Origin: Pseudomonadota bacterium
Lineage (GTDB): Bacteria; Pseudomonadota; Gammaproteobacteria; Burkholderiales; Burkholderiaceae_C
Direction of reading: 5' to 3'
Assembly: GCA_018241985.1 (NCBI GenBank)
Contig: JAFECV010000010.1
Coordinates: forward strand, 1-13,318
DNA: 13,318 bases
A model generated the notes under the pieces. The model saw nothing but the letters and a program-made list of their open reading frames with translations, searched no databases and was not told the origin of the DNA. The position numbers and the translations under genes are program-made. Positions 11,487-13,318 of the stretch are shown here, piece by piece. Position 1 is the first letter of the stretch, and each line of letters opens with the position of its first letter.

Positions 11487-12691
<1,205 letters not shown>

Positions 12692-12695
<4 letters not shown>

Positions 12696-13108
12696 GTCGG
12701 CTCCAGGTTGTCTTGCTCCCTCCCCCGCTGGGGGAGGGTTGGGGTGGGGGCACGCGCCGCCAACCCTTTCAATGTCTCGAGAATCACGGTGCAGACACCG
12801 TCGCGATTGCGCAAGGGCTCGTCGGTCGCGAACCGCAGCACCTCGAAGCCATGGGCGCGGAAGAACCGATCCCGGGCGGCGTCGTACTCAATCTGATCCA
12901 CGTGCTGCGAGCCATCGAGTTCCACGATCAGCTTGGGCTCCAGGCAGACGAAATCGGCCACGTAGGCTCCGAACGGATGCTGCCTTCGGAATTTCACGCC
13001 CAGTTGCTCGCCCCGCAGGCGGGACCACAGGTGCCGCTCCGAGTCGGTCATCTCGCGCCTGAGCGCGCGCGCATGGCGCTGGACTTTGGACTTCGATTGG
13101 TTCTGCAT
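12692..13108 (-). CDS. DUF559 (Vsr-like, PD-(D/E)XK) endonuclease-domain protein
   Basis: A 138-residue protein whose residues about 5-115 form a complete DUF559 domain. The N-terminal helix RHARALRREMTDSERHLWSR is followed by GVKFRRQHPFGAYVADFVC, the strand-turn LIVELDGSQH and the end strand GFEVLRFATDEPLRN. The putative PD-(D/E)XK residues Asp52, Glu63 and Asp65, plus His69, are all present, so the nuclease site looks intact. The core ends near GVCTVILETLKGL. The last ~20 residues (APTPTLPQRGRE, then QDNLEPT) are read out of the flanking repeat and the old operon spacer, and the stop overlaps the thiolase ATG (ATGA). The ATG at 13106-13108 sits just inside the right repeat with no clear Shine-Dalgarno except the G-rich repeat itself. 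No partner methylase is nearby. DUF559 proteins are mostly uncharacterised; a DNA-cleaving or repair-like role is inferred from the fold. Confidence 0.88.
12718..12753. repeat. Left inverted repeat of the DUF559 unit, with hairpin
   Basis: CCCTCCCCC (12718-12726), loop GCT, GGGGGAGGG (12730-12738) forms a perfect 9-bp stem, followed inward by TTGGGGTGGGGGCAC (12739-12753). It is the reverse complement of the right repeat with about 33 of 36 positions identical: one indel, one spacer change and one loop change. On the minus strand it is translated as the PTPTLPQRGRE tail of the DUF559 protein. There is no T-run, so it is not a standard terminator. Confidence 0.92.
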
Positions 13109-13115
13109 AGGCCGT

Positions 13116-13150
13116 GTGCCCCCACCCTACCCTCCCCCAGAGGGGGAGGG
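13116..13150. repeat. Right inverted repeat of the DUF559 unit, with hairpin
   Basis: GTGCCCCCACCCTA (13116-13129) is followed by CCCTCCCCC (13130-13138), loop AGA, GGGGGAGGG (13142-13150). The 9-bp stem is perfect and matches the left repeat's stem exactly; only the loop and the inner spacer differ. The copy lies between the dehydrogenase stop and the DUF559 start, with its G-rich strand just upstream of the DUF559 ATG. Confidence 0.92.
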
Positions 13151-13158
13151 GAAAGAGC

Positions 13159-13318
13159 TCAGTTCCGGAGCGGCTTTCCACTCTCGAGCATCGCCAGAAT
13201 CCGCGCCTGCGTCTTCGGGTGCTGGACCAGTTCGCAGAACGCGCGGCGCTCCAGCGTCATCAGGTATTCCTCGCTGACCGGGGTGTTCGCGTCGACGTCG
13301 CCGCCGGTCACGACGTTC
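13159..13318 (-). CDS. 3-hydroxyacyl-CoA dehydrogenase/enoyl-CoA hydratase, FadN/FadB-like (C-terminal part only)
   Basis: The last 52 codons of a large acyl-CoA enzyme; the 5' part is beyond the window. The tail NVVTGGDVDANTPVSEEYLM, then LERRAFCELVQHPKTQARIL and the end MLESGKPLRN, is characteristic of the FadN-like multifunctional 3-hydroxyacyl-CoA dehydrogenases of betaproteobacteria, with VTGGDVxANTPV and T-GKPLRN at the end. This enzyme would hydrate and oxidise enoyl-CoA or hydroxyacyl-CoA and hand 3-ketoacyl-CoA to the thiolase encoded next. Stop TGA is at 13159-13161. The gap to the thiolase is occupied by the DUF559 unit. The family call rests on a short segment but agrees with the operon context. 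Confidence 0.8.
   Translation of the reverse strand, partial: NVVTGGDVDANTPVSEEYLMTLERRAFCELVQHPKTQARILAMLESGKPLRN

Follow-up and report, generated by a model that had tools for sequence, protein, structure and literature searches.

A DUF559 nuclease gene enclosed by inverted triplex-motif repeats: a candidate autonomous unit of a dispersed repeat family

Why a one-domain nuclease gene should be tightly boxed between two inverted hairpin repeats, and whether gene and repeats belong together, is the question raised by one end of a 13,318-nucleotide stretch of DNA from a Pseudomonadota bacterium (Burkholderiaceae_C; assembly GCA_018241985.1, contig JAFECV010000010.1), hereafter called the window. 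The first-pass annotation of this stretch described two inverted repeats with an identical 9-bp stem around one intact DUF559 gene, and suggested that a Vsr-like nuclease here takes the place of RAYT in an autonomous, REPIN-like mobile unit. Sequence, open reading frames and Pfam matches confirmed the arrangement at the positions given in Table 1, and the stem CCCTCCCCC/GGGGGAGGG is common to both repeats. What had been overlooked is a third strand, each repeat being a hairpin followed by a G-rich third strand.

Table 1. Features at the repeat-enclosed DUF559 gene (window coordinates)
Feature	Position	Strand	Remark
Thiolase, left host gene	11487..12695	-	Pfam Thiolase_N + Thiolase_C
DUF559 nuclease ORF, 138 aa	12692..13108	-	domain about 12770-13087
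Left triplex repeat (TM)	12718..12751	+	third strand directed toward DUF559 gene
Right triplex repeat (TM), inverted	13118..13151	-	third strand directed toward DUF559 gene
Right host gene, C-terminal end alone (window end cuts gene)	13159..13318	-	GKPLRN-type motif ends frame, as in relatives

The left repeat consists of the stem CCCTCCCCC (12718-12726), the loop GCT, the stem GGGGGAGGG (12730-12738), TT and the third strand GGGGTGGGGG (12741-12750), and the right repeat reads CCCCTCCCCC-TCT-GGGGGAGGG-TA-GGGTGGGGG-C on the minus strand. The arms 12718-12749 and 13119-13150 are 88% complementary without gaps, and 31 of 33 aligned positions agree when gaps are allowed. The G-rich extension GGGGTGGGGG is the mirror of the 3' stem arm, with T opposite A as expected of a purine third strand, and completes an intrastrand triplex motif. 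A triplex-repeat detector run on the window returned exactly two inward-facing elements, namely the two flanking repeats, and it returned none in 200 triplet-shuffled windows or in the reversed sequence of the 104 DUF559 loci described below; the window repeats are therefore not due to chance. The DUF559 frame passes through the left repeat, which encodes its last 20 or so residues (PTPTLPQRGRE...), and it overlaps the start of the thiolase by 4 bp. The right host gene is one which we take to be 3-hydroxyacyl-CoA dehydrogenase-like; the 52 residues of it that the window includes gave no Pfam match. Rfam gave one chance-level match in 12600-13318 (18.6 bits, where the gathering score is 88). 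Assignment to a defence system was considered and rejected, since PADLOC gave a weak DpdF match alone (E 0.003, 13 bits).

Judged by its sequence, the flanking repeat belongs to a class already described, the intrastrand triplex motif (TM; PIT in earlier usage), and is not a REP of the GTAG type; the annotation, which had likened it to REP hairpins, is corrected in this respect. A pyrimidine arm, a purine arm and a mirrored purine third strand are all present, as in Table 1 of Holder et al. 2015 (PMC4666352), whose TM_ECO belongs to the same sequence class as the window repeats. According to the available text of that paper, TM_ECO occurs 23 times in E. coli, TM/PIT elements are known from E. 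coli and more than 260 genomes, and they are described there as neither linked to mobile elements nor flanked by genes of a shared function. The same text reports a triplex in vitro for single strands of TM_ECO, and no triplex from double-stranded TM_ECO or from in vivo footprints. The third strand is under constraint and co-varies with the stem. Of the 202 repeats in which a G-rich tail is present, 164 show a perfect 8/8 fit between the tail and its own stem, whereas tails re-dealt among the stems gave a mean of 46 and a maximum of 62 perfect fits in 500 shuffles. The consensus pairs of stem and tail are CCCTCCCC with GGGTGGGG, CCCTCTCC with GGGTGAGG, and CCTTCCCC with GGATGGGG.

The enclosed frame matches DUF559 with a Pfam E value of 2.1e-37 (127.8 bits, residues 8-113) and has 3hrl as a relative of solved structure. 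Along with the PF04480 match it carries residues of the PD-(D/E)XK type: E63, D65 and H69 are invariant in DUF559 alignments, and D52 is invariant or nearly so. A structure model (37-row alignment, mean pLDDT 80.9) matched 3hrl, itself a DUF559 protein, first (E 1e-7) and the catalytic domain of the homing endonuclease I-Bth0305I second (E 2e-3); its match to Vsr (1vsr) was weak (E 0.25). As far as the available texts go, a YcjD profile detects Vsr (PMC1189080), and Caulobacter VsrA, which carries DUF559, is reported to be required for an SOS response in cells without one cytosine methyltransferase (PMC12907096), a role that is compatible with a DNA-cutting enzyme.

The association of DUF559 with the repeats was examined at 104 loci: the 24 with strong matches (E<1e-20) among 100 relatives, window included, and 80 named loci, which are the best 80 of 571 matches and hence close relatives of the query. 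By their titles, the named loci are mostly proteobacterial, and Chloroflexi, Nitrospirae, Omnitrophota, Bacteroidetes, Chlamydiae and others are also represented. The PF04480 genome search can miss diverged members, because its control gave no E. coli match, though K-12 ycjD (b1289) is annotated as DUF559. At the 96 loci with full flanks (eight at contig edges were left out), pyrimidine-arm hairpins lay within 300 bp of the gene on both sides in 49 cases, on one side in 33 and on neither in 14, compared with 0, 19 and 256 of 275 control placements, which were taken from these same loci, chosen for holding DUF559. The G-rich tail of the nearest upstream hairpin points toward the gene in 55 cases, away from it in 9 and is unclear in 11, the corresponding numbers downstream being 36, 13 and 7. 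A motif-blind score of inverted flank similarity, computed for 74 of the 80 named loci (six had short flanks), reached at least 20 at 24 loci, or 23 without L083, whose score is due to a run of N, against 0 of 3958 control placements. The three-strand detector found 278 repeats at the 104 loci, of which 225 are no more than 600 bp away from the gene; the other 1.26 Mb contain 53. DUF559 genes are thus flanked beyond chance, in line with the annotation's proposal, and neither of the contrary outcomes that it had envisaged was found: such repeats are not generally missing from the surroundings of DUF559, at least one being within 300 bp at 82 of the 96 full-flank loci, and within the loci examined the repeats are not spread around unrelated genes without enrichment near DUF559. 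Six weaker DUF559-like loci (L028-L033) had no TM in their 3-kb loci, and the link therefore seems restricted to the strong, YcjD-like subfamily.

At L067 (Legionella anisa), the DUF559 match is situated between inverted repeats of more than 100 bp, longer than elsewhere. A diverged DUF559 gene at L247 (G087 C1:578300-581500), which shares 38% identity with the other copy in that genome, has a different flanking repeat, made up of CCCCTCC-loop-GGAGGGG, a further small hairpin and then GGGGTGG, possibly a variant triplex design.

In E. coli, the DUF559 gene is ycjD, which lies between sapF and fabI; 3365 of 5426 genomes gave a match to it. Strain KE47 has an inward TM that starts 4 bp past the ycjD match and is followed by a second TM, with none upstream. 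In K-12, the surroundings of ycjD are in part degraded, and the gene adjoins the TM listed as no. 9 by Holder et al.; by our reading of the available Table 1 (PMC4666352), four of the five K-12 TM pairs listed are inward and one is outward. A clean empty ycjD site was not found, the four ycjD-less strains examined carrying an efflux operon at this place (see the available text of PMC12817139). Plasmid and phage DUF559 records numbered 49, of which 44 were listed and 12 examined. Two Deinococcus plasmids (L187, L188) have TMs on both sides with third strands directed outward, and a third is one-sided. In Azospirillum, Photobacterium, Lelliottia and Neisseria, the TMs lie to one side of the DUF559 gene or at a greater distance, and a phage-labelled record showed a weak TM match alone. 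The DUF559 units L186, L187 and L188 are inside phenylacetate or hydroxyphenylacetate operons, in gaps that differ between species. On plasmids of Picosynechococcus and Pseudanabaena (L190, L191), DUF559 is found among repeats such as CCCCCGATTCGGGGGCTAGGGGGC; the cyanobacterial repeats have, by eye, a three-strand layout with all-C arms, to which the detector gives no score.

The stem type of the repeats is coupled to the lineage of the protein. On a tree of the 104 DUF559 domains, there were 17 changes of stem type over 74 labelled tips, where 300 shuffles gave 33.6 on average and never fewer than 27, although the tree has few columns and many open forks and shared host ancestry adds to the signal. 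Host lineage and protein lineage are separated in the window genome (G000) and its relative G001: their thiolases are 94% identical and both have the unit in the same gap, and their DUF559 proteins are 54% identical. Among the same-gap units, the G000 protein is closest to those of G002, G003, G026 and G041 (69-73%), and the G001 protein to those of G023 and G049 (60-66%). The stems are of the CCCTCTCC type in G001, G023 and G049 and of the CCTTCCCC type in G002, G003, G026 and G041, and the CCCTCCCC type of G000 is one base off that of its protein relatives. The dispersed copies tend in this direction: where the DUF559 flanks are of the CCTTCCCC type, the CCTTCCCC share among dispersed copies is higher (p 0.0012), and the same holds for CCCTCTCC (p 0.0009), with the DUF559-flanking repeats counted in these shares and with exceptions, G026 and G011 among them.

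On balance, we lean toward the interpretation that 12718-13151 is an autonomous unit of a selfish, REPIN/RAYT-like repeat system driven by an unrelated nuclease of the Vsr/EDxHD fold (DUF559, YcjD). The dispersed short TM doublets would then be its non-autonomous, MITE- or REPIN-like relatives, and DUF559 is the prime suspect for spreading TM through genomes.

The gap between the thiolase and the right host gene was read in 29 relatives, G005 (wrong gap bounds) and G033 (gene end not found) being left out of the gap classes. The unit is present in eight of the 29 gaps (441-714 bp), and 11 gaps measure 9-27 bp. One gap of 49 bp (G050) holds a single hairpin, and one of 171 bp (G051) holds a doublet without a gene; G010 and G051 have no unit in this gap and have DUF559 elsewhere in the genome. 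The thiolase gap may be a preferred landing site. In the comparison of filled with empty sites proposed by the annotation, presence and absence of the unit stood, and neither a target-site duplication nor a transposition event was established among the 29 relatives. The gaps of G005, G048 and G008 (L154, L156 and L163 among the loci) contain an unrelated repeat beginning with AAGCTACTGCG..., and those of G009, G013, G027 and G036 (L167, L174, L177, L178) are occupied by 533-569 bp of sequence that may be a different gene.

The same gap bears on the main alternative, a homing-type invasion, in which an older TM doublet is the site attacked and DUF559, as a free-standing homing endonuclease gene, enters the spacer between the two repeats and so comes to be flanked by them. 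This is possible, in our estimate, but rather unlikely. The second fold match is to I-Bth0305I, and a paper on Thermosynechococcus, in its available text, places a DUF559 gene in the EDxHD homing family. Furthermore, the gene-less doublet of G051 occupies a gap that holds the unit in other genomes, and the sequence just inside the repeats (GCACGC...) is alike in the G041 doublets and the G041 unit. However, the unit-less gaps are mostly the short ones without a doublet, so that most empty gaps show no pre-existing target, and at one site protein lineage and stem type change jointly, which points to repeats and gene moving together. The DUF559 gene lies between two host genes and not within one, and no intron or intein was seen. 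The gene-less doublet of G051 is expected both from the mobility of a unit and from homing.

It could also be supposed that the hairpins serve local regulation or insulation, as terminators or mRNA-stability elements favored around a potentially harmful nuclease gene. The repeats are indeed close to the ends of the DUF559 gene, and an Enterobacter genome paper (PMC2869309), which in its available text counts 100 such palindromes, presumes a role in termination for them. The text available of Holder et al. (PMC4666352), however, cites earlier work in which PIT/TM had no promoter or terminator activity, and regulation leaves the third-strand co-variation, the dispersed gene-less doublets and the swapping of modules unexplained. 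We regard this explanation as improbable.

If the TMs were recombination portals and DUF559 a passenger spread without acting on them, other passengers should be found between them. Inward-facing neighboring TM pairs 300-699 bp apart numbered 53 at the 104 loci, which were chosen for holding DUF559, and all 53 carry DUF559. In 48 of them, the pair encloses the DUF559 match (inner spacing 310-488 bp); in four (L074, L082, L119, L135), the match extends into the downstream repeat; and the pair at L092 (12275-12718) surrounds another DUF559 gene, one that had come up in no prior search. Ten same-direction pairs and two outward pairs also enclose DUF559, which, together with the outward tails in Deinococcus, indicates that orientation is not strict. 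The single inward pair of 700-1500 bp (L125) holds no DUF559 by the criterion used. Closer pairs (<150 bp) comprise 19 inward ones without a gene, spaced 23-82 bp, 39 outward and 18 same-direction. Stretches of G010 and G041, taken around repeat sites already listed, had 11 inward and 3 outward (G010) and 10 inward and 2 outward (G041) pairs of <150 bp; an inward pair 181 bp apart in G041 contained no DUF559-like frame, and no inward pair of 300-699 bp with another gene was present in these stretches. Given the selection of the loci, the strongest independent points are the blind L092 gene and the fact that neither the far DNA nor the G010 and G041 stretches contain other cargo.

Instability of the sites is what speaks for such hitch-hiking. 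TM sites are unstable in E. coli according to the available text of Holder et al. (PMC4666352), and our reading of the fepB-entC region (L240, L241, L242), for which the K-12 query gave matches of at least 80% coverage in 2752 of 5426 genomes, is similar: a TM doublet within a 186-bp stretch is present in K-12 and absent as a block in Ecol_AZ161, and strain AHM21C2872I has 75 bp less than K-12, two repeats being merged into one. Legionella DUF559 segments also recombine with each other (PMC12308824, available text). Set against the exclusive DUF559 cargo at the loci examined and the tracking of the DUF559 protein by stem type, this leaves a passenger role quite improbable.

The repeats are dispersed, as the annotation had expected of short copies, and many of these copies form inverted doublets. 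In the window genome (3.1 Mb in 820 contigs, 89.9% complete), DUF559 was found once, the exact stem pattern at three places and a looser pattern at six; the third exact site (contig C39, L004) is part of an inward two-repeat doublet without a gene. Among the 100 relatives, at least five hairpin copies, DUF559-flanking ones included, were present in 18 of the 24 genomes with strong DUF559, compared with 9 of the 76 without (Fisher p 1e-8, a value that ignores kinship and is inflated by relatedness). A reversed control pattern gave at most 11 matches (G094, against 143 for the pattern itself); in G093 it gave 7, against 1. The six strong-DUF559 genomes with fewer than five copies are G023, G064, G069, G088, G093 and G096. 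Of the nine repeat-rich genomes without strong DUF559, six had no match to a custom DUF559 profile, G050 had partial matches (E 3.4e-11 and 5.8e-5), and those of G038 and G082 were marginal. Repeat-rich genomes without DUF559 would be expected after loss of the gene, and equally if gene and repeats were independent. Recent duplicates were sought in four two-copy genomes, whose copies are 65, 61, 38 and 46% identical, indicating no recent burst.

It is scarcely credible that a RAYT (Y1_Tnp) encoded at another place in the genome spreads these repeats as ordinary REPs, with DUF559 incidental: the architecture resembles that of REPtrons and matches to Y1_Tnp, the RAYT superfamily, occur in 72 of the 100 genomes, but they show no association with repeat load (20/72 against 7/28, p 1), and five genomes (G026, G049, G055, G079, G095) have 13-92 copies and DUF559 with no Y1_Tnp match, so that RAYT was rejected as the driver. 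One genome (G021) has 61 hairpin copies, no DUF559 and 20 Y1_Tnp matches, several of which are apparently split.

We thus return to the interpretation of the segment as an autonomous unit of a repeat system, of which the association, as put forward by the annotation, holds, and mobility and cutting of the repeat by DUF559 are what we infer. A repeat that is single-stranded, for example on the lagging strand, or extruded would fold into the hairpin or triplex, as reported in vitro for single strands in the available text of Holder et al. (PMC4666352). DUF559 would then recognize its own type of stem and third strand and nick or cut in or beside the repeat, which is suggested by its fold, its conserved catalytic-type residues and the co-variation. 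When the broken DNA with its repeat is then repaired or copied, units and doublets could arrive in further intergenic gaps or, alternatively, one site could be converted from another, and the repeats would so be spread. Loss of the gene from units would leave doublets or single hairpins that outlast the nuclease, consistent with G050, G051 and the E. coli alleles. The wider proposition, that triplex-fold selfish repeats are spread across bacteria by a one-domain nuclease of the Vsr/homing type that recognizes its own triplex type, seems to us evenly poised.

Catalogues of triplex/PIT repeats cover hundreds of genomes, and the repeats have been tied to genome instability, with neither a carrier nor a function given in the available text of PMC4666352. 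With a specific nuclease partner that is conserved widely, their origin can be tested through ycjD of E. coli K-12. If the interpretation is correct, the DUF559 family gains a substrate, the enzyme possibly recognizes a non-B DNA structure, REPIN-like repeat populations can be run without any transposase by an enzyme class unrelated to RAYT, and the orphan PIT/TM repeats of E. coli, Neisseria, cyanobacteria and others are explained.

Our search found no paper on the link between DUF559 and TM; subscription papers and preprints were outside it, so that an earlier report is possible. The pairing does not fall under RAYT/REPIN, from which it departs in enzyme class and tag, and we found no other described pair of repeat and enzyme that fits; its two parts are known separately.

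Compared with known systems, the pairing resembles MITEs and their autonomous IS in having an autonomous unit and short gene-less derivatives with the same ends; it differs in that no target-site duplication was seen and that DUF559, the sole protein of the unit, belongs to no known transposase family. With the EDxHD homing endonucleases, represented by I-Bth0305I, it shares the second-ranked fold and a plausible break-and-copy logic, whereas the DUF559 gene here is bounded by dispersed triplex repeats. Vsr proper is a patch-repair endonuclease that acts on T:G mismatches and is coupled to a cytosine methyltransferase. The PD-(D/E)XK fold is common to both, and Caulobacter VsrA is a DUF559 protein (PMC12907096, available text), but the fold match to Vsr is weak. 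TM_ECO/PIT are of the same repeat class, with a co-varying third strand and one element beside K-12 ycjD, but the available text of PMC4666352 reports for them no enzyme, carrier or mobile-element association. REP/REPIN and RAYT (TnpA_REP), or REPtrons, differ in their enzyme, which is an HUH tyrosine transposase (Y1_Tnp) and not a Vsr-like nuclease of the PD-(D/E)XK type, and in the GTAG tag of their repeats (PMC3733652, available text), which is lacking in the pyrimidine/purine triplex motif of the window. In both systems, however, one small DNA-processing gene lies between inverted hairpin repeats, single copies and inverted pairs are dispersed through the genome (six copies by the looser pattern in the window genome), and the type of repeat follows the lineage of the enzyme.
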